The notes below the pieces were generated by a model. That model worked only from the letters and a program-made list of their open reading frames with translations. It was not told the DNA's origin and did not search any database. From a virus: 57,680 nucleotides of DNA. Both the position numbers and the translations under genes were made by a program. Positions 21,435 through 49,295 of this stretch are shown here, one piece after another. The stretch's first letter is position 1, and the number at the start of each line of letters is the position of its first letter. The stretch is from positions 1 through 57,680 of IMG/VR virus record IMGVR_UViG_3300044859_001932. One strand, 5' to 3'.

Positions 21435-22043
21435 TTACTTTGTTTCATTGGCATTTGAAAAGGAGTATATCAAACTACCATTTTTGGTTAGATCTATAAC
21501 CTCCTTGTAATCTTCTTTAGGTATAGAGAAACACCCCCAGCTCCAAGGTGTTCTTTGTACTTCACTGTTATGGAACACTATTGACCTGTCTCTTACCCTA
21601 TTATTTCTCTTTTCTAGTCCATCTACTCTCATCGAATACCCGAATGATCCTTTATATGTCTCTGCTGTTTTCATAAATCCTAGTGAGGATTTTTTAGAAT
21701 CATTAACATTAGAAAATGCTGTAGGTATTGATGTTCTGCCTGATCCGTCTGAACCCATTCCGTGACAAACCTTTGTTGATTTGATGATCTTATTAGAATC
21801 AAGGTCAACTATAAAAAGTCTATCTTCTTCCATTGGCTTATTAAAATCAACTATGATAACTTTCCTGGTCGAAAGATTCTTCTTATATTTAGTGTATCCA
21901 GATTTAGCTAGCGATACAATGCTATCGTTATATTCTTGTGGTTTATTAACCTTATGGTTCACTCTAAGATCTTTATTTGTTTGCGCATCAGTACACGATA
22001 TAACTAATATGATTGCGGTTAAAATACTTAATAGATTTTTCAT
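21435..22043 (-). CDS. Lipoprotein L,D-transpeptidase-like (YkuD_2 type), 202 aa
   Basis: N-terminal lipoprotein signal with lipobox VISC (C17). The catalytic domain resembles the murein L,D-transpeptidase family with the YkuD_2 pattern: CHGMGSDGSGRTSIPTAFSN, SSLGFMKTAETYKGSFGYSM, and the active-site HN...WSWGCFSIP with the catalytic Cys in GC. Such enzymes cross-link peptidoglycan or tether proteins to it in the periplasm. A phage copy made during infection might remodel the wall or block superinfection. It has promoter module P5 and is separate from the second enzyme at 22153. Confidence 0.82.
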   Translation of the reverse strand: MKNLLSILTAIILVISCTDAQTNKDLRVNHKVNKPQEYNDSIVSLAKSGYTKYKKNLSTRKVIIVDFNKPMEEDRLFIVDLDSNKIIKSTKVCHGMGSDGSGRTSIPTAFSNVNDSKKSSLGFMKTAETYKGSFGYSMRVDGLEKRNNRVRDRSIVFHNSEVQRTPWSWGCFSIPKEDYKEVIDLTKNGSLIYSFSNANETK

Positions 22044-22152: not shown

Positions 22153-23238
22153 TTAAGACCTTCTTTTCTTAAGAAGCTCTGGTTTAATAACTATTTTATC
22201 TTTCCCTAACGTGTCTGTGATATCCTTATCTGTTACATTATACCAATTGTTAGTATTAGTTTTTACGTTAATGGGCATTGTATACGGCTGTGATTCAACG
22301 TCAATTGCTCCATCCTTTTTAAATGTTGAATAATCAATTTTAACTTCTATTGTTTTATTACCTGTTTTCTCTTTCCACTTAGCATAATACTTAGCAAAAT
22401 CATCGCTATTTGTGATCAAATCTATACATCCGATAGATCCGGGTGCACTTCCCCCATGCAGATAGAAACTACTTCTACCGAATGTGTTTGTACCAGGTTT
22501 AGGGTTTAGTGCCCATCGGTAATCTCCCCAAGCAACTTTAGATGATGCGGTATTCTGATTAAACTCGTGACCTTCTGTATCTTTTACTGTAGACCCGGGT
22601 AATACAGAAACCGTTGATCTAGCAACAACTTTTTTAGCGTAGTTAGGATCCGTTTTCCATTTGGTGTCTATTTCCCTATGTTGGGTTGCACCTAGTGTGT
22701 ATAGTCCGGGAGGTGTTGGTCCTTCATTCTTAGCCTTAGACCATTCTGTGTGGGACACGGTATATCTTTTATTCCAGATAGCAGGTTTTATATACCAGTG
22801 GTAATAAGTTCTTCCTGATACAGCAGTCCAAGATTTAACCGCTTTACCGTTTTCTATAAATTGAAGCTTGTTACCGTTAAAAAGTAAATAATCCTTAGAT
22901 TTTTCTGCGGTATTATTATTAATTTTCTTTCCCCCAGTTTTTTTATCAAGATATTTCATAATCTTTGGAGTAAGAGCTTTACCATCTGTACCCTTTAGCT
23001 CTTTGCTAGTTTCAGCAACTTTTCTAATTGCCTTTTCTGTATTCCCCCCATAAAATCCATCTACCTCTATCTTTGGAGCGTCTTCAGGTAAAGCTAGATT
23101 CAACTTAGCCTGATATTCTTTGATTTTATCGTAATTTTCTCCAGATTTAGATAAATTTATTTTTTGTATTAAACCGGATTTAATTTCGTTTTCGCTCTCG
23201 TTAAGGCTAAAGTCATTGAAAAGTTTTAGGTTTTTCAT
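22153..23238 (-). CDS. L,D-transpeptidase-like protein with peptidoglycan-binding domain and capsid-targeting-like N terminus
   Basis: 361 aa, no signal peptide. The N terminus MKNLKLFNDFSLNESENE fits the targeting pattern (LNE/S). Residues about 35-95 resemble a PG_binding_1 repeat (KIKEYQAKLNL, EVDGFYGGNTEKAIRKVA). Residues about 115-290 are a YkuD/DUF2778-like catalytic domain ending in SSFYLHGGSAPGSIGCIDL, with H261 and C271 as catalytic pair. The last 60 residues form another small domain. A head-packaged wall enzyme could act on peptidoglycan during DNA entry. It has a GATATATA element upstream and a terminator downstream. Confidence 0.82.
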   Translation of the reverse strand: MKNLKLFNDFSLNESENEIKSGLIQKINLSKSGENYDKIKEYQAKLNLALPEDAPKIEVDGFYGGNTEKAIRKVAETSKELKGTDGKALTPKIMKYLDKKTGGKKINNNTAEKSKDYLLFNGNKLQFIENGKAVKSWTAVSGRTYYHWYIKPAIWNKRYTVSHTEWSKAKNEGPTPPGLYTLGATQHREIDTKWKTDPNYAKKVVARSTVSVLPGSTVKDTEGHEFNQNTASSKVAWGDYRWALNPKPGTNTFGRSSFYLHGGSAPGSIGCIDLITNSDDFAKYYAKWKEKTGNKTIEVKIDYSTFKKDGAIDVESQPYTMPINVKTNTNNWYNVTDKDITDTLGKDKIVIKPELLKKRRS

Positions 23239-23261
23239 TTATAATTTTTTTAAATTTAGTC

Positions 23262-23269
23262 TATATATC
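23262..23269 (-). promoter_or_regulatory. GATATATA element, possible late promoter
   Basis: Octamer 23 bp before the L,D-transpeptidase gene. On the other strand AATATATA follows at once (23272) and could serve the divergent 73-aa gene. Confidence 0.45.
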
Positions 23270-23285
23270 ACAATATATATAAGAT

Positions 23286-23507
23286 ATGATACCAAGTAAA
23301 GAATATTTAGATCACATAGCGAAAAGACTGGAAGCAATGAATCCCAATATAGTCAATGGGGTTAATATCATTCAGGAGCCATATAAAATGACAAGCTTTG
23401 AGGATCAATTAGGTCAAACTGCAATGGCTTATCTTGCAAACAAAAAAAATCAGGAACATATAGCCCCTGATCCTCTTTTCACTGATAGAAATACGTATCA
23501 ATACTGA
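23286..23507 (+). CDS. Hypothetical protein, 73 aa
   Basis: Isolated plus-strand gene. Residues 1-30 are a helix with KEYLDHIAKRLEAM, followed by EDQLGQTAMAYLANKK; the C terminus DPLFTDRNTYQY is short and polar. No family recognised. Soluble; possibly a structural or accessory protein given the late-type element upstream. Confidence 0.6.
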   Translation: MIPSKEYLDHIAKRLEAMNPNIVNGVNIIQEPYKMTSFEDQLGQTAMAYLANKKNQEHIAPDPLFTDRNTYQY

Positions 23508-23820
23508 TTACTTAACGTATAAGACAACATATTGGTAAACTTATAACTACTATAAGATTTCTTATTTATTCATTCTAGTGGCTTCTAATGAGCTACTAGG
23601 TATTGTTATTTTTCACCATACCAAACAAAGTTACCTAAATTATACATCATGTTTATTAAGAGGTTTTCCAATCCCATTTCGGTCTCATAATAGTTAATAA
23701 AAAAACCATTTTATTCTCTCCTTTTTTAGGAAGATTTCCGTCCGATTAGTTTTTTTATGATTTTTCTTCTACAAAAAGCGAACCGTATTTTATGTTAACA
23801 CATATTTTCATATTTTTATT
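23508..23820. other. 313-bp convergent intergenic region
   Basis: Contains a hairpin CTAGTGGCT/AGCTACTAG at 23576-23600 followed by a T-rich stretch on the plus strand, a likely terminator for the 73-aa gene. An 18-codon minus-strand frame (MKICVNIKYGSLFVEEKS, start 23811) begins 10 bp after the GT2 stop but is too short to support. Otherwise AT-rich sequence with nothing recognised. Confidence 0.4.
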
Positions 23821-25576: not shown

Positions 25577-26041
25577 TTACTTTGTTTTTATTGATTCAAT
25601 AAATTCTTTATTTGACTCTATCATTCGGCCAACTGAGTTTCTGCCCTTCTCCCCGATAGGAATTGGATTTCCCTCCTCGTCGATATGAACGAACTTAATG
25701 TGTGTTTTAAGAACTAGTGCCTGTCTACCTGTGTAAACATTATGTGCTCTGGCCTCGATGTATAAAGTTATTGATGTGTGACCTATGTCAGTAGGTATTC
25801 CATACACCTTAACAAGCTGTCCTTCTTTCGCTGGTTTTTCAAAATAACACTTATCGATAAGTATTGTGACCATTCTTGGTGTATCACATAGCTGCATAGA
25901 ATACCCAGCAGCAGCTGCATCGATCCATTTTAATAATTGACCTCCAAAAAGATTCCCATGAAATCCAAGATCTGACTTTTTAATTGGATGGAAAGTTAAA
26001 ATATCCATTTCCGTTTGGTTTTGATTTACAGTTTTTTCCAT
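25577..26041 (-). CDS. Hotdog-fold acyl-CoA thioesterase, 154 aa
   Basis: Motifs of the YciA/BFIT group: HPIKKSDLGFHGNLFGGQLL, then KWIDAAAAGYSMQL with the catalytic Asp/Asn region, MVTILIDKCYFEKPAKEGQL and SITLYIEARAHNVYTGR. It would hydrolyse acyl-CoA to free acid and CoA in the cytoplasm. Rare in phage genomes; here it sits in an operon with MgsA, the LpxH-like enzyme and ThyA, so it is probably an auxiliary metabolic gene. Chain-length preference cannot be read. Confidence 0.88.
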   Translation of the reverse strand: MEKTVNQNQTEMDILTFHPIKKSDLGFHGNLFGGQLLKWIDAAAAGYSMQLCDTPRMVTILIDKCYFEKPAKEGQLVKVYGIPTDIGHTSITLYIEARAHNVYTGRQALVLKTHIKFVHIDEEGNPIPIGEKGRNSVGRMIESNKEFIESIKTK

Positions 26042-26051
26042 GCCATCTGTA

Positions 26052-26423
26052 TTAAATTATTTTTAATTTTAATCCTTCTATAACTAATGATGCTGTCATA
26101 TAGTTTGTTGCCAATGGCGTGTTATAAACGTTGCAGATACGAAGCAACATGTTAACATCAACCTGATGTGGATGAACCTCCAGAGGATCAATAAAGAAAA
26201 TAACAGCATCTATTTCTCCATCAGAAACCATAGATGCAATCTGTGCGTCACCACCTAAAGGTCCAGACTTTAAACAGTTCACTTCAAGACCAGCATGCGT
26301 GATATGCTTACCCGTTGTACCTGTTGCAAGTATATCAACCTTCTTAAAGAAATCAAGTCTCTTCATTACAAAGGCAACTATGTCTGCCTTTTTTCCGTCA
26401 TGTGCAATAACTGCTATCTTCAT
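26052..26423 (-). CDS. mgsA: Methylglyoxal synthase
   Basis: 123 aa. Family motifs AVIAHDGKK, ILATGTTGK, SGPLGGDAQI (D59 as the catalytic acid region), FFIDPLEVHPHQVDV (D79, H86, D89) and PLATNYMTASLV are all present. The enzyme converts dihydroxyacetone phosphate to methylglyoxal plus phosphate, bypassing lower glycolysis and releasing inorganic phosphate. In a phage it may relieve phosphate limitation or redirect carbon; this is inference. It overlaps the upstream gene by 4 bp. Confidence 0.92.
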   Translation of the reverse strand: MKIAVIAHDGKKADIVAFVMKRLDFFKKVDILATGTTGKHITHAGLEVNCLKSGPLGGDAQIASMVSDGEIDAVIFFIDPLEVHPHQVDVNMLLRICNVYNTPLATNYMTASLVIEGLKLKII

Positions 26424-26777: not shown

Positions 26778-27917
26778 TTAGTTTGATAAAGGTGCTTTAA
26801 TTGTTGGGTGTGATTGATAATTTTCAACAACAAAATCAGTATTATCCAAATGTGTTATTAAACTTAAATCTTCACCTAAGGATTTATAAAACTCATCTGT
26901 TTTCATATGTTTTAATGTTGGTAATGGAAATGGCTCCCTAGTTTTTATTCTCGGAATATCCCATTGGTCAATTTCAGAATGTGATAGTGTGCTACTGTCT
27001 CCAGCATTATAAATTTGATTAAACATTTCTTGTGTAACCATTTTTCTTCTTTCTTCTAAACTTAATTCTCTTCCAATTTGTTCTTTAGCCTGTTCAATAT
27101 GGTTCAAATACAAATGTACATCACCTAAGTTACCAATCAATTCATCAGGAACCATATTTACTTCTTTTGCAATTATTTCTAATAACAATCCATAAGAAGC
27201 AATGTTGAATGGTAAACCTAAGAATGTATCTACTGAACGTTGATTCCACATTAAAGAGATTGCTCTATATTTTCCAGGATTAACAATCTTTTCATCTCTT
27301 GTGGTTGGACGTGTATAAACTTGAAATCCATAATGACAAGGCGGAAGAACCATTTGGTCTAACTCTCCAACATTCCAGCTGTTTACCATTAATCGTCTTG
27401 AGTCTGGGTTTGTTTTAAGGTCGTTGATTAGGTTTTGGATTTGGTCTACACCATCATATCCTTCTTGTTCATTTGTTGGGTGATTAAAATTCCTCCATTG
27501 TTTACCATAGATAGGACCTAATTCACCAAACGTTTTAGCATGCCATTTATCAAGACCTATTGCCTTAATCAACTCATCTTTTGTAAATTTTTTTGGCACT
27601 TCAAATGGTGTAGTTTTACTCATGTTTTCATACCATTTCTCATATGCTTTATAAGCATCTCCATCCCAGATGTGGCAATCGTTATCAATAAGATATTTGA
27701 TGTTTGTATCACCTCGAAGGAACCACAGTAATTCAGTCACCATAGTTTTCCAAGCTATCCTCTTAGTTGTAAGCAACGGAAATCCATCCTTCATGGTATG
27801 ACGGATACTGTAACCGAAAATTGATTTAGTTCCGGTGCCTGTACGGTCTTTCTTTTCTATTCCATAATCCAAAATAGATTGGAGAAGATCTGTGTATTGT
27901 TTATCTAAACTATTCAT
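26778..27917 (-). CDS. thyA: Thymidylate synthase
   Basis: 379 aa, longer than the usual 264-280 because of an insertion near residues 90-145. Motifs: DRTGTGTKSIFG, FPLLTTKRIAWKTMVTELLW, YGKQWRNF, DSRRLMVNSWN, the catalytic MVLPPCHYGFQ and RSVDTFLGLPFNIASYGLLL, then GDVHLYLNH. It methylates dUMP to dTMP using methylene-tetrahydrofolate, supplying thymine for phage DNA. It overlaps the flavoprotein gene by 4 bp. A divergent second member of this superfamily is encoded at 45164. Confidence 0.95.
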   Translation of the reverse strand: MNSLDKQYTDLLQSILDYGIEKKDRTGTGTKSIFGYSIRHTMKDGFPLLTTKRIAWKTMVTELLWFLRGDTNIKYLIDNDCHIWDGDAYKAYEKWYENMSKTTPFEVPKKFTKDELIKAIGLDKWHAKTFGELGPIYGKQWRNFNHPTNEQEGYDGVDQIQNLINDLKTNPDSRRLMVNSWNVGELDQMVLPPCHYGFQVYTRPTTRDEKIVNPGKYRAISLMWNQRSVDTFLGLPFNIASYGLLLEIIAKEVNMVPDELIGNLGDVHLYLNHIEQAKEQIGRELSLEERRKMVTQEMFNQIYNAGDSSTLSHSEIDQWDIPRIKTREPFPLPTLKHMKTDEFYKSLGEDLSLITHLDNTDFVVENYQSHPTIKAPLSN

Positions 27918-28480
27918 TTCTTTAGATCTTTTTTAATATCTTTTTCTACTGTTTTTAAATATGATTCTCTCTTTTCTTGCGAAACAAAAGGCACACTCCA
28001 AAACTGCCTTGTTTTTGTCTTAAACCAACCAAAGACAAATGAATAAACACCCATTACTAATCTCAATTTAACCGAGTTAAAATACAATGTTTGAACAGGA
28101 AGAGCTGGTGCTCCGTGTGTTAAATATGTTCTAACTTTTTTATCACTTAATAGTGGTTTTGGATAACCGTACAATTTAGTTAGTGGTATAAAATTATATG
28201 CAAATCCCGGTGTGAAAACTTCATCAAAAAATGTTTCCATTTTTGGGGTTAATCTAAACCACCAAACGGGGGATACTATATAAATTCTATCTGACCAGGT
28301 AACTGTGTCCTTATAAGATTTTACTAAATCGAGTTTAGTACTGGTAAAATCATCGCCATATAAATCTATCACCCTAATTGATTCGTTTGCCTCTTGTAGT
28401 GTTTTATGGATTGTTTTATGTATACCGTTATAACAAAAAGACCCTGTGTTTGGGTGTGCTATTATTATTAGGTTATTCAT
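27914..28480 (-). CDS. Flavodoxin-like NAD(P)H:quinone oxidoreductase
   Basis: 188 aa of the Flavodoxin_2 family: LIIIAHPNTGSFCYNGIHKT at the N terminus (FMN/FAD phosphate loop), WSDRIYIVSPVWWFRLTPKM then ETFFDEVFTPGFAY, and YLTHGAPALP. These two-electron reductases use FAD and NAD(P)H in the cytoplasm. Overlap with thyA suggests a coupled role in redox or folate balance, or protection from quinone/oxidative stress; inferred. Confidence 0.85.
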   Translation of the reverse strand: MNNLIIIAHPNTGSFCYNGIHKTIHKTLQEANESIRVIDLYGDDFTSTKLDLVKSYKDTVTWSDRIYIVSPVWWFRLTPKMETFFDEVFTPGFAYNFIPLTKLYGYPKPLLSDKKVRTYLTHGAPALPVQTLYFNSVKLRLVMGVYSFVFGWFKTKTRQFWSVPFVSQEKRESYLKTVEKDIKKDLKK

Positions 28481-28688
28481 TATCGAAATATTTTTTAATC
28501 ATCTCTAATCTATCCTCAGCTTCGGCTAAAAGTTGTAACGATTCTGTTGCATCCTTAAGGAAATCGTTTGCCGTGTGATCGCCGATACCAACCCCTTTAT
28601 TTTCTAATAGATCTAAAGACATTAAAGCCTTTTCCCTGTCTGCTAATGCCTGAGCTTTTAGCGCTAATATTACCCTTGTTTTTTTCAT
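28473..28688 (-). CDS. Hypothetical helical protein, 71 aa
   Basis: Starts MKKTRVILALKAQALADREK and continues as amphipathic helix to EDRLEMIKKYFDNE. Probably a short coiled coil. Not recognised. It overlaps the flavoprotein gene by 8 bp and starts 1 bp after the T9SS-tagged gene. Confidence 0.65.
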   Translation of the reverse strand: MKKTRVILALKAQALADREKALMSLDLLENKGVGIGDHTANDFLKDATESLQLLAEAEDRLEMIKKYFDNE

Positions 28689-28689
28689 T

Positions 28690-29280
28690 TTATTTTATAA
28701 TGTATATTCTATTTATTGAATTACCAAATTTAATTGTAAAAAAACCTGGAGACCATAACTCTATATTAATTTGGTTTTGAGTACTATTCCCCTCATAAAC
28801 AACTTTCCCTAAGTAATTGTAAATAATCACTTCTACTACTTCTCCTTCATATTCAAATGATAATTCATTTGACGTAGGATTTGGATAAAAAATTATTGGG
28901 GTTTGTTTTACAATATTTACTCTATTAATTTCCCCTATTTCTGGTTCTTTACAAGTGACACGAATTTCTTCATATATAAAGGTATCACAATTTGTACATT
29001 TATTTTTGAATATGGATTTAATTAAAAACACCCCAGAATCTTGAAAAACATGTTTAAATATTCTTCCTTCATGGTTTTTTTGAGGATAATCTTTAATCCT
29101 TAAATTTTTTATGTAAGTAATGTATGAAACACAAGTATCTTTTGAACCTAATTCAAAAGTGTAAGTATTACACTTATTTGAATAATATATTCCTTGTTTG
29201 GACCAATCACATTTTGAAGTTTGACCCCATGTAAAAAATGATATTAAAATCATTACCGTTGTTAAAATTGTTTTTTTCAT
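28690..29280 (-). CDS. Secreted protein with type IX secretion (Por) C-terminal domain, 196 aa
   Basis: Signal peptide at residues 1-20 (ILTTVMILISFFTWGQ). The middle (about 35-112) is a Cys-containing beta domain with six or more Cys and a PKD-like DSGVFLIKSIFKNK segment. The last 70 residues are a type A T9SS C-terminal domain: IIFYPNPTSNELSFEYEGE, VVEVIIYNYLGKVVYEG, then WSPGFFTIKFGNSINRIYIIK. In Bacteroidota this domain directs proteins through the PorKLMN/Sov outer-membrane machinery. A phage-encoded substrate of the host T9SS is unusual. It could be displayed on the infected cell (e.g. superinfection exclusion, receptor masking) or be transferred host cargo. Confidence 0.88.
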   Translation of the reverse strand: MKKTILTTVMILISFFTWGQTSKCDWSKQGIYYSNKCNTYTFELGSKDTCVSYITYIKNLRIKDYPQKNHEGRIFKHVFQDSGVFLIKSIFKNKCTNCDTFIYEEIRVTCKEPEIGEINRVNIVKQTPIIFYPNPTSNELSFEYEGEVVEVIIYNYLGKVVYEGNSTQNQINIELWSPGFFTIKFGNSINRIYIIK

Positions 29281-29347: not shown

Positions 29348-29521
29348 TCAGATTATTTTTCCATAAAAAACACTGAATTTGTTTGTAGACATTACGGAAT
29401 TATATTTTATTTCTCTGTGTGAACAACAAGTATGTTTGCAAGCAATACTTACTGCTATAGATTCACATTTCATTTTTTTAGTAATATAATCATGAATTTG
29501 TTGTGTTAATGATTCTTGCAT
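29348..29521 (-). CDS. Small Cys-containing protein, 57 aa
   Basis: Frame from ATG 29521: MQESLTQQIHDYITKKMKCE, then SIACKHTCCSHREIKYNS. The CKHTCCSH cluster could bind metal or form disulphides. Below the usual ORF length cut-off; support is codon use and the absence of any better frame. Not recognised. Confidence 0.4.
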   Translation of the reverse strand: MQESLTQQIHDYITKKMKCESIAVSIACKHTCCSHREIKYNSVMSTNKFSVFYGKII

Positions 29522-30085: not shown

Positions 30086-30319
30086 TTAATAAATTTTAAG
30101 GTGTGGGTATTCTGTTATCTCTACGAATCTTTTATCAACTTTATAATACTTTTCTAATACTTCATCTAACAATTTCTCTTTCGAATCTTGGAAATAAAGA
30201 TAACGAGCTGATCCATATCCCATATCAACTATGTAGCCAATGTATTTCCAACTCATGAATGATCTTCTTTGGATTAGATAATTATTCTTCCCTTTTACGA
30301 ATCTTATTTTAATTCTCAT
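30086..30319 (-). CDS. Hypothetical protein, 77 aa
   Basis: The start is placed at the ATG at 30319 (MRIKIRFVKGKNNYLIQRRS), which overlaps the upstream stop by 11 bp; ATG 30328 is an alternative. Beta-rich with YIGYIVDMGYGSARYLYFQD and a basic helix. Not recognised. Confidence 0.6.
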   Translation of the reverse strand: MRIKIRFVKGKNNYLIQRRSFMSWKYIGYIVDMGYGSARYLYFQDSKEKLLDEVLEKYYKVDKRFVEITEYPHLKIY

Positions 30320-30503
30320 TTTCCTCATTATTAATTTCACCGGTTTCTAAATCAAACCAAACTGTTTCTGGTCCTTCGTTACCCATCTGTGATAGAGCTT
30401 TCTGCAGCATTGGTCCTAAAACTTGATTCATCCATTGGTCCTGTGTCAGATCCGAATCTGGATTATTCTTTAGGTAATTTTTGTACTGTAATTCTAATGT
30501 CAT
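30309..30503 (-). CDS. Hypothetical protein, 64 aa
   Basis: MTLELQYKNYLKNNPDSDLT, QDQWMNQVLGPMLQKAL, then a C-terminal WFDLETGEINNEENEN. Soluble, helical, acidic tail. Not recognised. It lies 18 bp after the AAA+ gene, likely the same transcript. Confidence 0.65.
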   Translation of the reverse strand: MTLELQYKNYLKNNPDSDLTQDQWMNQVLGPMLQKALSQMGNEGPETVWFDLETGEINNEENEN

Positions 30504-34463: not shown

Positions 34464-35051
34464 TTATCTAATTGAGTAATCAGTGTATTTAGTCTTGACC
34501 GGGGTCTCATTAGGAAAATAGTACTTTATAGTCTTTTTAGACCTTTCTAAGTAGATTGTTTTATAAAATCCGGTAGGAACGGTAGCTCCTGAGGGCAATA
34601 AGATAGATTTTTTGTCAAAAACAAGAGTTACTGTAACTATAACATTTTCAGTCTTAGCCAATTCTCTCTCATATTTTTCTAGCATTTTCCATACACCTCT
34701 GTTTAAATATTGATTCTGTAAAGCGCAGTTTAAGTAGCTAAAAGTTTGATATAAAAGCTCTTTGGTGCAATTAAAATCAGCTGCTGGAGCTAAATGACCC
34801 TTGTCATATATGTTATTCGCATAATCAGCTGCATCGGAGGTTTTAATCGAGTCATTTGTATAAAAGTCCATACCTTCTCTAGAAGCTGTTCCTTCCGTGC
34901 ATTGCACAGTGTATCTTATCCATGTTGGCTGCTCTAGCTTTTCGTTGTATATTACTTCGTAAATCTGTGTTTTTACCTTAACCGATTCTCTAAGTTTCTG
35001 TCCAAATAATAAGGTCGGTAATAATGCTATTAAGAATATTAATTTTTTCAT
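34464..35051 (-). CDS. Secreted DNA/RNA non-specific endonuclease (NUC1/EndA type)
   Basis: 195 aa with a signal peptide (KLIFLIALLPTLLFGQ). The beta-beta-alpha-metal core has NIYDKGHLAPAADFN, where the usual DRGH is DKGH (H86 general base), and LNCALQNQYLNRGVWKMLE with the metal-binding Asn. These nucleases degrade single- or double-stranded DNA and RNA, here after export to the periplasm or medium. It could clear competing phage DNA, or feed nucleotide salvage. Single gene between an acidic protein and a glycosyltransferase. Confidence 0.87.
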   Translation of the reverse strand: MKKLIFLIALLPTLLFGQKLRESVKVKTQIYEVIYNEKLEQPTWIRYTVQCTEGTASREGMDFYTNDSIKTSDAADYANNIYDKGHLAPAADFNCTKELLYQTFSYLNCALQNQYLNRGVWKMLEKYERELAKTENVIVTVTLVFDKKSILLPSGATVPTGFYKTIYLERSKKTIKYYFPNETPVKTKYTDYSIR

Positions 35052-35090: not shown

Positions 35091-37442
35091 TTATTTGGAC
35101 CAGCCCCTAGCCTCTATAGCATCCATTACCTGTTTTGCAGAGATTCTCTTGGTGCACTCAAATTGTCTGGGGGTTCCTTTATGCTCAGGACACCAGAACC
35201 AATCTCCTGGGTCAAATGGGAATCTCTCAGGTGTATTAAAGCAGGAATTACAAACGTCATCCCTGTGAATTCTAATGCAGTCCTCATCAAACTCGTTATC
35301 CTTTGTGGTTACCCCTGATATCACAGCCACTTTTTTACCTAGAGCATGTGCTACCCAAGATAATCCGCTGGAAAGTCCTACGAAGAATTCGCAATGTTCT
35401 ATCCAGTGCATCATTTCAGTAAGTTCCATACCTGTCTTGTTCATGCAGTTCTTTGGGATCTCGTTCCAGTTTCCCTCCGTACCAAAGCTATAATATCGAT
35501 CTATGCAAACTGGGGTTAGTCCCTTCTTAGTAAGCATGTCGCATAATTTTTCCCAGGAATTGTTATTGTTCCAATGCTTAGCCTGTGCAGTACTGTGACT
35601 GGAAAAGCAAACATATTTCTTATTTAGTGGGGAAGGTTTTCCTGATGTCTTTAGCTGTGGTCTAACTTTGCCCATATCACCTAATCCTAGCTGTTTAGCG
35701 AAGCCTATTTGTAAAGGTAAGTCATAGATATAGTCACAGCATATAATGTCCGTATAAGCGCTTAAATCACCCGGCATTTGTATCAGATTTACATTGGGAT
35801 ATAATTCTTTGTAAAGAAATCCAAAATTAGATACCACATCACACACTTTGCCCAATCTTCTAGCATATTCTTCTGCATAGGGCATGAAAGATATAGTGTC
35901 ACCCAATGCCGCAGTTTTTAAAATTATAAGTGGGTTGTTTTCTTTAACATGGTTTGGACTAAAGTAAGATATTATCTGATCCGTGTTTAAAACCCGATAA
36001 AATCCAGACTCGTCATCACCATTATATTTAAAATGCGGTAAGTAGATGTCTTCAAGAAACCTTGATTTTTCTGATATAGACGGGATGCACTTAGTTAGAG
36101 ACACAAAGTCCTTAATAATGTCCTTAATATCATCTCTTCTTATGTTTCCGTCCTCTATCAAAACATGCTGATCTGTTAGATCCATCTTGATTGTTTTCAG
36201 AACCTCTGAGCCATCTTTTATAACGATTTCCCAGTCAATATACTCGTTTTTATTATCAGGGACTGTCGACCAAGCTCTTCTGCTTTTTCCAACATTTAAA
36301 AATGATTTAATCGATCCTGTTCTGGCATCTCTAAAAAATATAGCCTGTCCTTCGCCTTCAGGATATGAGCATTTATAAAAATGCGGATCCCTTTTAAACC
36401 AAGAGTAAAATCCATGATCCTCTCTCTTTTCTATTCTCTTAGGAATTGACAGGTAGTCATTAAGTATAAGGCTCTTCTGTGATATCTTACCGAATGAAGC
36501 ATAATCCATAAGCATTCTTGAAACAACAACTTCCCATGATATTAAACTTCTTTTATCTTTACATTCAAGAACATATTGGGGATATCTTTGGAGAACTTCA
36601 GAAACACCATCAACTAGATCTACAGTGTTTGCGGTGTCTACTCTTTTCATCCCTTTTAGATCAGCCTCCATTAAACCAACAACAGGAATACCCATCGCTA
36701 TACTTTCAGTAACTGTTAGGTTAGGATGTCCTGCTTCGATAGCTCCTGGATTTAAAAAGACGTGATGTTTTCTTATTTCAGCAAGCGAATCCTCATAATT
36801 CATGTCGTATATCACATTGAGTCTTATGTACGATGCTATCACATCATTCTTTTCGAAAAACTCCTTGTTGTTTTTACTAGGGCATATTATCGTTATGTGT
36901 AAATTCAGTACTGCTGCACACTCTATGCCTGGAATAAATCCCTTTCTGTCGAATAATGGATCTCCTAAAAGACCATTGTTTGCCATCATGACTAAACTTG
37001 GGCCTTTTTCAATAAGATCTTTGGATCTATCCTCAAAATAATAATCTTCTAAATTAGCCCCGTGGCTAAGGTATCTTAATTGTGGTAAAGAACCAAAATA
37101 ATCAACAAGATATTTAGCATGGACAAATGACAGAACAGATCCTTTTATAGCTTCCAGATTTTGTTTGTAAACATCAGAATCCTTTCCTAAATGATGTGCA
37201 TGGTGATCGTGATGGGAAAAAACGTAAGGAATACCTCTCTCTTTTAAAAGTAAAGCTAGATTAGCCATGTGTACATGGACAATGTCCCATTCACCTAACC
37301 TAACATCATCTGTGTAAATTATTTCAACCTCATGGCCAAGACCTCTTAATACCTTTGTGTATTCCCAGATTATTTTTTCTACTGCTCCCCATCCGTTAGG
37401 TGGTATCGGAATTACCCCTGGTGTGATTTGTGCTATTCTCAT
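35091..37442 (-). CDS. GT4 + GT9-like fusion glycosyltransferase (heptosyltransferase type), 783 aa
   Basis: The N-terminal half (1-330) is GT-B GT4-like: RIAQITPGVIPIPPNGWGAV, VFSHHDHHAHHLG and PNLTVTESIAMGIPVVGLME. The C-terminal half (500-783) resembles GT9 and the autotransporter O-heptosyltransferase TibC/Aah type: LIILKTAALGDTISFMPYAE, FSSHSTAQAKHWNNN, FFVGLSSGLSWVAHALGKK, then a four-Cys tail VCNSCF, FWCPEHKGT and FECTKRIS that probably binds iron or zinc. The middle (330-470) is an extra domain. It may glycosylate phage virion proteins or host surface structures. It follows the GT4/FkbM gene by 3 bp. Confidence 0.83.
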   Translation of the reverse strand: MRIAQITPGVIPIPPNGWGAVEKIIWEYTKVLRGLGHEVEIIYTDDVRLGEWDIVHVHMANLALLLKERGIPYVFSHHDHHAHHLGKDSDVYKQNLEAIKGSVLSFVHAKYLVDYFGSLPQLRYLSHGANLEDYYFEDRSKDLIEKGPSLVMMANNGLLGDPLFDRKGFIPGIECAAVLNLHITIICPSKNNKEFFEKNDVIASYIRLNVIYDMNYEDSLAEIRKHHVFLNPGAIEAGHPNLTVTESIAMGIPVVGLMEADLKGMKRVDTANTVDLVDGVSEVLQRYPQYVLECKDKRSLISWEVVVSRMLMDYASFGKISQKSLILNDYLSIPKRIEKREDHGFYSWFKRDPHFYKCSYPEGEGQAIFFRDARTGSIKSFLNVGKSRRAWSTVPDNKNEYIDWEIVIKDGSEVLKTIKMDLTDQHVLIEDGNIRRDDIKDIIKDFVSLTKCIPSISEKSRFLEDIYLPHFKYNGDDESGFYRVLNTDQIISYFSPNHVKENNPLIILKTAALGDTISFMPYAEEYARRLGKVCDVVSNFGFLYKELYPNVNLIQMPGDLSAYTDIICCDYIYDLPLQIGFAKQLGLGDMGKVRPQLKTSGKPSPLNKKYVCFSSHSTAQAKHWNNNNSWEKLCDMLTKKGLTPVCIDRYYSFGTEGNWNEIPKNCMNKTGMELTEMMHWIEHCEFFVGLSSGLSWVAHALGKKVAVISGVTTKDNEFDEDCIRIHRDDVCNSCFNTPERFPFDPGDWFWCPEHKGTPRQFECTKRISAKQVMDAIEARGWSK

Positions 37443-37445
37443 TTC

Positions 37446-39380
37446 TTAACCTTTTCTTTTTGCAAATATTACTCCGTGATCTGCATTGTTGTCAACCTCT
37501 TTCTGTATTAATTCATCATAAAGCTTAACCACAAAATCAGCGCTAACTAATTTTTCTATTAATGAATTGACTCTTCCGCCTTTATTGTCATGGAATTCTA
37601 AAATTATATTATTAGCTTTAGCTAGCGATTCAATATTAGTTTTATCCAGCAAATCATATTCAGCACCCTCTATATCAATCTTTAATAGATCAACTGAATC
37701 ATGATCAGACATCAGAGAGTTTAGTGTTTTCGATTTAACCAAAACCGTATTTTCGCTTATAGTTTTTGCAATGCTAGAAACTAAAGTGTTCTCTGGATTT
37801 ACACTAAGGTTAACATCTTCACCATCACCTGTTAATGCGATCTCGCTGAAAATAACATTTGGATTTTTTGAGTGCATCTTTCTGAATTCATTAGCAGCTA
37901 AAGGATTTGGCTCTATTGAGATGATCTTTTCGAACCCCACATCTAAACAATACTCTGTAAATAATCCAACATTAGCACCAACGTCAATAGCAACTTTCTT
38001 TCTGAATATGCTATCCGTCATAATGTCATATATTCGGTCAGTGAAGAACTCTTCATAATTTCTAAATATAGGATCTTTTGTATCCAATCTGCAAGCCCTC
38101 TTTGTTACGTTTCTAAATCTTATTACTGATTCAGAAATCACTTCCTCTCCCTGCTTATATTCAATTAAGAATCCACCAAAATTTGGGTTATTTTGGAAAT
38201 CATAAATATGGATGGGTACTGGAATTATCCAATAGGATCCACCTAAACTAAAGTTTATAGTGCAATGGAATATATTAGAACCACTGTCCACGTCCTTAAC
38301 ATAAACATCACAATTAAGTTCCTTTATGTTTCTTGAATCCCCTCTATAAACTATATCAAGTTTATTATCCCAAGGGGAAAATTTGTGGATAAACATATCG
38401 CTTTTATTATTCATAACTAATTCTTTTTTAGGGTTTAGTATTTCTCTTATTTGGTTTGCTATCTCTGTCATATCATCACTTCTAAAAAACTTTAGAGTGT
38501 TCGATTCCTGATACATGTCAACATAAACAGAAAGATTTCTTAGAAGCAATGTGGATTTCCAAGATATTGCTTCTTTGATAACGAGTGGACTTGTTTCCTT
38601 ATCATTGAATAAAGGAATTGAGGGGAATATAACAAGATCCGCTGCCTGATAGAATAAATCTACGTCATCTCTTTCCCCCCATACCTTACAATTGGGAGGG
38701 AGATTACTTGTGATAGGATTCCAATACCATTTAAAATTATCAGCCATTGTACCGATAAAATGGAATTCAACTTCCGGTAGCAATCTTGCAATCTCTGCGG
38801 TTTCTCTTTGATTTTTTCTTGGAGTAAATATACCTATCTGGATTATGTGTTTCTTATTAGGATCCAGTCCAAGTTTTGTCCTGCTATCTAAATAATCTCT
38901 TACTGGTTTCTTAGCTATCCCGTGTTCAATAACTTCAATTGGTACTTTAAGATCTCTTAATAAGTTAACCTGCCAAGGACTAACGACAACAAATTTATCG
39001 GGGAGATATATTTTTTCTTTAGGAGAAACTGACGAATCGTGCATGGTCTCAAATATTTTATATTCTCTGGCGTCATAGAATATAATATCCAGAAGATGGT
39101 GGCTTAAGAATTGCTCGCAAGGTTCTTCGAAATGTATAATATCAGGCTTCATCTCCTTGATTGCCTTAATGAGAATATCTTCTGGTTTATCGCCCCATGT
39201 TATTATTCTCTCTGAACCAAGTATGGATTGGATTCTTTTCCTAATTGTGTTGTAGGAAGACTCATGTCTTTTTTCAAAGACCCAAACTTCCGCTTCGTCT
39301 TTGATTTTGTCTATTTTATTCTTTAAATATTCCGGCATTCCTCCGGTAGACAGGTAAGGTACAATATAAAAAACTCTCAA
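37446..39380 (-). CDS. Glycosyltransferase (GT4-like) + FkbM methyltransferase fusion, 644 aa
   Basis: Residues 1-320: GT-B fold with YIVPYLSTGGMPEYL, PDIIHFEEPCEQF, IQIGIFTPRKNQRETAEIAR, ERDDVDLFYQAADLVIFPSI. Residues about 330-430 form a beta-rich linker. Residues about 440-644: FkbM SAM-dependent methyltransferase with AIDVGANVGLFTEYCLD, IISIEPNPLAANEF and LLKIDIEGAEYDLLD. It would transfer a sugar and O-methylate it. The pair with the next gene suggests a dedicated glycan pathway. Confidence 0.85.
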   Translation of the reverse strand: MRVFYIVPYLSTGGMPEYLKNKIDKIKDEAEVWVFEKRHESSYNTIRKRIQSILGSERIITWGDKPEDILIKAIKEMKPDIIHFEEPCEQFLSHHLLDIIFYDAREYKIFETMHDSSVSPKEKIYLPDKFVVVSPWQVNLLRDLKVPIEVIEHGIAKKPVRDYLDSRTKLGLDPNKKHIIQIGIFTPRKNQRETAEIARLLPEVEFHFIGTMADNFKWYWNPITSNLPPNCKVWGERDDVDLFYQAADLVIFPSIPLFNDKETSPLVIKEAISWKSTLLLRNLSVYVDMYQESNTLKFFRSDDMTEIANQIREILNPKKELVMNNKSDMFIHKFSPWDNKLDIVYRGDSRNIKELNCDVYVKDVDSGSNIFHCTINFSLGGSYWIIPVPIHIYDFQNNPNFGGFLIEYKQGEEVISESVIRFRNVTKRACRLDTKDPIFRNYEEFFTDRIYDIMTDSIFRKKVAIDVGANVGLFTEYCLDVGFEKIISIEPNPLAANEFRKMHSKNPNVIFSEIALTGDGEDVNLSVNPENTLVSSIAKTISENTVLVKSKTLNSLMSDHDSVDLLKIDIEGAEYDLLDKTNIESLAKANNIILEFHDNKGGRVNSLIEKLVSADFVVKLYDELIQKEVDNNADHGVIFAKRKG

Positions 39381-48805: not shown

Positions 48806-48829
48806 TAAACAAAGGTACGAAATGGGGGC

Positions 48830-49295
48830 GGTGGATCCGCAGGGAGTCGAACCCTGGTCTCCTTCAGTTAACTCAAAGAATTCATTCACAGGCTTAGAAA
48901 GTTTTTTATAAACTTACAAACTAATCGGGTTTATGACACCAGCAAACATTTTGCTGTCTTTTAGTGACTTACAGCGTCAGTCAGAGAACTTACGTTAACA
49001 GCGATCTTAAGGGTATTGATGTTATCTCAGGGTTACTGATCATAAGCTCTACTTTTTTTGGTACTGTTAACCCTTTTTCCCAACGTCACATTTTTTTAAA
49101 CGGAGTAAGTGAGACTCCGGAGGTTATGCAGCGTAAGCGTACTCAACCTCAGTTACAGGAGTACCAAACGAGTTGATAGCGTCCCAAACTGATTTTTTGC
49201 CATTTATAGCTTTATATAGGTTATTAAAGTGTTTCCAATACTAACACTGCCTGCATTCAAAGAACTACGCCTGCGGATCAATTCCGGTCGGACCC
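48830..49295 (-). ncRNA. ssrA: tmRNA (trans-translation RNA)
   Basis: About 466 nt on the minus strand. The ends pair as a tRNA acceptor: GGGTCCG at the 5' end (49295 downward) with CGGATCC, then A and CC at the 3' end (48839-48830); CC is encoded but the terminal A is not. A T-arm with CAGGGTTCGACTCCCTG precedes the 3' end. The tag reading frame ends GTTGAGTACGCTTACGCTGC then ATAA, giving VEYAYAA before the stop, like the YALAA/AYAA tags of bacteria. Upstream in the same frame stands FGTPVTE; the resume codon cannot be fixed. A GTGTT/AACAC hairpin fits pseudoknot 1. It would rescue stalled ribosomes with an altered tag. Confidence 0.9.

Follow-up and report, generated by a model that had tools for sequence, protein, structure and literature searches.

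Phage-encoded cargo for the type IX secretion system (T9SS) is already described as a concept, together with the suggestion of superinfection exclusion, in publications from 2019–2020. Cryophage carries three T9SS-tagged genes for which superinfection exclusion was proposed, and its cargo bearing a type A sorting domain comprises endoglucanase, GH39, and PA14-domain proteins (Bellas et al. 2020, PMC7468147). In crAss-BACON cluster 2 phages, a BACON ORF bears a T9SS sorting domain and other proteins with T9SS sorting domains are encoded nearby (de Jonge et al. 2019, PMC6949934). The T9SS route begins with Sec export; the C-terminal domain (CTD) is then recognised, the protein crosses the SprA/Sov-PorV translocon, PorU removes the CTD, and the product is anchored or released. 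Solved type A CTDs have seven strands (PMC10202324 for both the route and the fold).

Here we describe P0001, a putative T9SS cargo protein of 196 aa encoded on a virus sequence of 57,680 nucleotides, the whole of which is referred to as the window. P0001 is probably a phage-encoded substrate of the host T9SS. It resembles the Cryophage proteins as phage-encoded type A cargo that varies between related phages (PMC7468147), but Cryophage cargo consists of enzymes and PA14 proteins, whereas that of P0001 is small, Ig-like, rich in cysteine (six residues), and common to two distant phages. With the crAss-BACON phages it shares a T9SS tag on phage proteins, although the tagged genes there lie near head genes, carry BACON domains, and have no known relation to the P0001 cargo. 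A family of ∼640-aa proteins that includes those of Immutovirus likewise combines a signal peptide with a PF18962 tag in phages, but its cargo is large, contains a cohesin domain, is encoded beside endolysin and holin-like genes, and has no homology to that of P0001. The Bacteroidota type A substrates (RgpB, PorZ, and Hbp35 CTDs; PDB 8glj chain D) have an Ig-like seven-strand C-terminal sorting domain, as P0001 is predicted to have, but they are encoded by the bacterium and their cargo domains differ. Within the literature searched, two elements are new: a six-cysteine cargo common to distant phages, and how widely the cohesin-type family is spread.

Sorting tag and cargo domain of P0001

P0001 (28690–29280, minus strand) was identified by ORF prediction, with an ATG start, and by profile matches. 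Its N-terminus (MKKTILTTVMILISFFTWG, then Q), read by eye, shows the succession of n, h, and c regions typical of Sec signal peptides; residues 1–20 (MKKTILTTVMILISFFTWGQ; 29221–29280, minus strand) form the apparent signal peptide, and the relative encoded on virus contig G001 has the same layout. The mature cargo domain (residues 21–118; 28927–29220, minus strand) precedes the type A CTD (residues 129–196; 28693–28896, minus strand), which contains a YPNP motif and seven predicted strands and ends in YIIK.

The initial annotation had proposed a signal peptide and a type A T9SS CTD for this product. The signal peptide is apparent by eye, and the CTD passes the curated cut-offs of Pfam (PF18962 Por_Secre_tail, residues 132–189 of 196, 32.4 bits against 27, E 1.1e-7) and NCBIfam (TIGR04183 “T9SS type A sorting domain”, at the C-terminus, 26.8 bits against 23, E 3.7e-6). 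P0001 is the sole PF18962 match in the window, which holds ∼70–80 genes, and the CTD match is therefore not due to chance. The best solved-structure sequence match of a profile of P0001 paired with its G001 relative was 8glj_D (E 2.6e-4, residues 131–188), a 75-aa chain named “Por secretion system C-terminal sorting domain-containing protein”, and the same profile retrieved CTDs of bacterial proteins across Bacteroidota. The YPNP motif, a late glycine, and the domain end are kept in an alignment with 20 bacterial CTDs, and a low-confidence structural model (pLDDT 54.5) separates into two beta domains, residues 129–195 contributing seven strands, as many as solved type A CTDs have. Judged by these profiles and alignments, the tag is a genuine T9SS type A CTD. 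The Bacteroidota −7 type consensus TAnnTTTG, the one consensus tried, was not found in the 420 nt upstream of P0001.

All six cysteines of the cargo half (residues 24, 37, 50, 95, 98, and 110) are kept in the G001 copy, and none lies in the CTD. The low-confidence model folds this half as an Ig/FN3/PKD-like beta sandwich. Its residues 23–112 gave FN3/Ig-type matches in Foldseek/VIA up to Z 8.6 (6msv_A, 2.9 Å, 84 aligned), among them entries for surface glycan-binding protein B of Bacteroides (7kv7_AAA, Z 7.5, 3.2 Å, 74 aligned; 7kwb_A, Z 6.7, 3.3 Å, 80 aligned); for such a model, these matches are at the level of the common beta-sandwich and say nothing on function. No T9SS CTD chain was among the Foldseek/VIA matches listed. 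Sequence matches of the paired profile to Fc-gamma receptor III (E about 0.007) were taken as chance resemblance between Ig folds. P0001 gave no cohesin match in a profile scan and has no family in PHROGs, and its sequence shows no sign of an anchor or of a target. In a profile search of 395 Bacteroidota genomes, the cargo half was without a match and essentially only the CTD half was matched; the cargo half therefore looks phage-borne, and P0001 looks like a tag of the usual bacterial type joined to a cargo found only in phages so far.

Genomic setting, selection, and probable arrival

IMG/VR lists the window as a virus record, and the flanks of P0001 are syntenic in jumbo phages. Because relatives with roughly 80–92% identical neighbours sit on contigs of 126–349 kb, we read it as a fragment of a jumbo phage genome. 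Neighbouring genes have their best matches in phages of Maribacter, Cellulophaga, Flavobacterium, Prevotella, and Tenacibaculum; a host in the Bacteroidota, presumably with a T9SS, is supported.

A phage operon next to thyA had also been claimed in the initial annotation and is borne out, as P0001 heads a tight cluster two genes before thyA. On the minus strand, a 71-aa protein (28473–28688) is encoded 1 nt downstream, followed by a flavodoxin-fold NAD(P)H/quinone reductase-like protein (27914–28480; PF02525) and the thymidylate synthase ThyA (26778–27917; PF00303), the successive junctions being a 1-nt gap, an overlap, and an overlap. Other jumbo phages, without P0001, have a 93% identical copy of the 71-aa gene ahead of thyA. 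An MGS-like domain protein of the methylglyoxal synthase type (26052–26423, minus strand) belongs to the same phage gene cluster as the thyA region, and a 4HBT thioesterase (25577–26041) lies in the cluster with it.

Other features of the window include a phage-encoded tmRNA (48829–49295, minus strand; Rfam RF00023, 63.5 bits; ARAGORN tag EVEYAYAA) and two large glycosyltransferase fusions on the minus strand, one matching the autotransporter strand-loop-strand O-heptosyltransferase (35091–37442; 215.9 against an NCBIfam cut-off of 200) and one with an FkbM methyltransferase domain (37446–39380). Two further minus-strand products are apparently exported: a DNA/RNA non-specific endonuclease (34464–35051), which has a signal peptide, and an L,D-transpeptidase (YkuD_2; 21435–22043), whose start resembles that of a lipoprotein.

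A full-length relative of P0001 (L002 8001–8582, G001 23195–23776; 51% identity) is encoded on G001, a 93.7 kb virus contig with 26.2% GC, and has its own signal peptide by eye and its own PF18962 match over the cut-off (36.9 bits). Other ORFs of G001 resemble GroEL, clamp-loader, queuosine-pathway, and tail/capsid genes (translations judged by eye), and the P0001 copy stands between a 174-aa ORF, with a 4-nt overlap, and queC, 3 nt downstream. Both copies are set among phage genes with gaps or overlaps of 1–4 nt, and the gene is not confined to a single genome; confinement to one genome, as a recent host insert, was among the outcomes that the initial annotation had named as refuting. G001 and the window otherwise have almost no proteins in common; by gene content, the two phages are at most distantly related and largely unrelated. 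Bacterial GroELs closest to that of G001 come from many phyla at 47–53% and are uninformative on its host.

Identity between the two copies is 57/102 in the cargo half, which includes a 16-residue identical block, and 36/68 in the tag half. A codon comparison gave dN 0.40 and dS 1.06 (dN/dS about 0.4), and in neutral simulations with an equal number of changes aa identity stayed at or below 41%, compared with the observed 53%, and a stop arose every time. P0001 has therefore been maintained as a protein, and its status as a translated phage gene under purifying selection is supported by these comparisons. The window and G001 hold the two known copies of the cargo domain. No further copy was found in IMG/VR (protein and paired-profile queries), in 25 related virus records (paired profile), in 50,697 phage records (tblastn), or in the genome contig collection (sequence patterns). 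Two degenerate DNA patterns for the cargo domain recovered only G001; among the nine matches of the second, one was G001 and seven lay inside unrelated proteins, and L324 was rejected separately.

Among the 67 genes in the window that encode at least 90 aa (mean GC 35.0%), P0001 is the poorest in GC (25.2%, z −2.7); the non-coding DNA upstream of it has 27% GC. Alongside lies a folE remnant (29348–29521, minus strand), the C-terminal part of a GTP cyclohydrolase I gene with internal deletions, 65–69% identical to G001 FolE. The slot between an 84-aa ORF (30086–30340) and thyA measures 0 to about 4.5 kb among relatives. P0001 is dispensable, because the four closest jumbo phages (L089–L092, flanking genes roughly 80–92% identical) lack both it and the flavodoxin gene here. 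Given the lowest GC, a hypervariable slot empty of P0001 in relatives, and the decayed folE, the simplest reading is a recent horizontal arrival from an AT-rich, G001-like phage, a direction and route that we infer. Block transfer of P0001 with folE was considered and rejected: folE lies upstream of P0001 here and 4.8 kb downstream of it in G001, so that only a loose link between the two is claimed.

Tagged proteins in other phages

Besides the full-length relative in G001, related phages carry the same tag, as the initial annotation had led us to look for: PF18962 was over its cut-off in 16 of 66 related virus records, gathered through the window thyA and an AAA ATPase and in some cases near-identical to one another. 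The tagged proteins examined in those records belong mostly to the ∼640-aa family (A2/A3), with a layout of signal peptide, cohesin domain, and tag, and a weak dockerin-like match in some. Representatives matched the tag profile in 31/31 cases and the cohesin profile in 25/31 at E ≤ 0.01. The family is common in large aquatic phages, with at least 179 IMG/VR stretches encoding it, and the 75 full-length members among the best 80 of these at least 179 loci all have a signal-peptide-like start (by eye) and the tag motif. The gene adjoins endolysin and holin-like genes (L116 and L117, where examined); one member lies at L117 7241–9163, with relatives in L235–L313. The matching endolysin/holin locus of the window phage (14054–16152) is without the ∼640-aa gene.

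In cultured Immutovirus phages the protein is split into two ORFs, each with a signal-peptide-like start (in MW353176, immuto35A_15, a cohesin-domain protein, and immuto35A_14 upstream). In these phages the gene for the tagged protein has one for endonuclease G in its vicinity. The UniProt/BFVD entry A0A6J5M064, also of the family, is named “Secretion system C-terminal sorting domain [uncultured Caudovirales phage]”. PHROGs holds no family for the ∼640-aa protein, and a comparison with 296 Bacteroidota genomes matched its C-terminal part only, among the matches listed. A search with the P0001 profile of 25 records, several holding ∼640-aa proteins, found none of those proteins; by profile comparison, P0001 is not a member of this cohesin/T9SS family.

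Small tagged proteins occur in huge uncultured phages as well, over the cut-off in LR756502 and LR745206 and at 26.9 against 27 in LR756501. The CTD consensus, compared with 50,697 phage records, matched only Flavobacterium and uncultured phages. A DUF4874/DUF4832 protein of a jumbo phage (L120 6465–7952, G007) carries a T9SS tag that scored 27.2 bits in a genome search and 22.9 against 27 in a single-protein scan.

Proposed role and implications

The tag, together with what is known of the T9SS (PMC10202324), is the reason for the export route and CTD removal proposed here, and export of P0001 through the host T9SS is likely. P0001 would be made from the phage operon during infection, exported through Sec by its signal peptide, and folded with disulphide formation in the periplasm. 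Its type A CTD would be recognised, the protein would pass the SprA/Sov-PorV translocon, and a PorU-type sortase would cut off the CTD, so that the ∼110-residue Ig/FN3-like six-cysteine domain would be left either at the exterior of the infected cell or free in the medium. There the domain could act as a binder that alters the infected-cell surface, masking a receptor or other surface structure, with superinfection exclusion or attachment control as the outcome. We offer this surface-masking role, which is close to the surface coat suggested in the initial annotation, as a tentative conjecture; it is our best guess, with the odds somewhat against it. Its support is indirect: phage-resistant Flavobacterium columnare has mutations in T9SS and gliding genes (sprA, gldK/M/N; PMC9233685), and the T9SS/gliding surface therefore matters to phage adsorption.

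P0001 could instead be a chance arrival in a hypervariable slot, exported if expressed, and either useless to the phage or, as a moron, helpful only to the host population. Its low GC, the variable slot length, the adjoining decayed folE, and the closest relatives without P0001 fit such an origin, but the ORF is intact in two diverged phages with a dN/dS of about 0.4, lies 1 nt from the downstream phage gene, and belongs to a kind of cargo that phages carry recurrently, which makes this account unlikely. Less likely still is that P0001 competes for PorV/SprA/PorU as a decoy and lowers the display of host T9SS adhesins (phage receptors and gliding adhesins), so that superinfection exclusion would come from an occupied machine and not from a surface coat. 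The phage resistance of T9SS/gliding mutants in F. columnare (PMC9233685) fits this account too; the P0001 cargo is also very small relative to its tag, and other huge phages encode unrelated small tagged proteins (136–199 aa). A mere decoy, however, would not need the identical block and six invariant cysteines of a cargo half as conserved as the tag, and the cargo met more often in phages is a large protein of several domains.

Structural proteins of phages often contain Ig-like domains, and the C-terminal domain of P0001 could be an ordinary one, in a virion or periplasmic protein that the T9SS does not read. Both P0001 copies nevertheless have an apparent signal peptide, the match is specific to sorting-domain profiles and to CTDs that end bacterial proteins, and the gene lies in a metabolic operon, not in a structural module. 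We consider this the least likely account, improbable even beside the chance-arrival and decoy accounts.

Returning to P0001 as a T9SS substrate, it is conceivable, though we lean slightly against it, that large Bacteroidota phages widely exploit the host T9SS as a strategy. A number of unrelated cargo families, including P0001, which is passed between phages, and the ∼640-aa cohesin-type protein encoded beside the lysis genes, would then be displayed on infected cells or released from them to control superinfection, adhesion, or aggregation. The cultured Immutovirus phages on Flavobacterium sp. LMO8, whose tagged protein belongs to the ∼640-aa family, are suggested as a direct test system. 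If phages routinely export proteins via the T9SS, infected Bacteroidota would show a virus-defined surface or secretome, which, if true, would be relevant to superinfection, to how biofilms and aggregates form, and to the enzymes dissolved in fresh water and in the gut.
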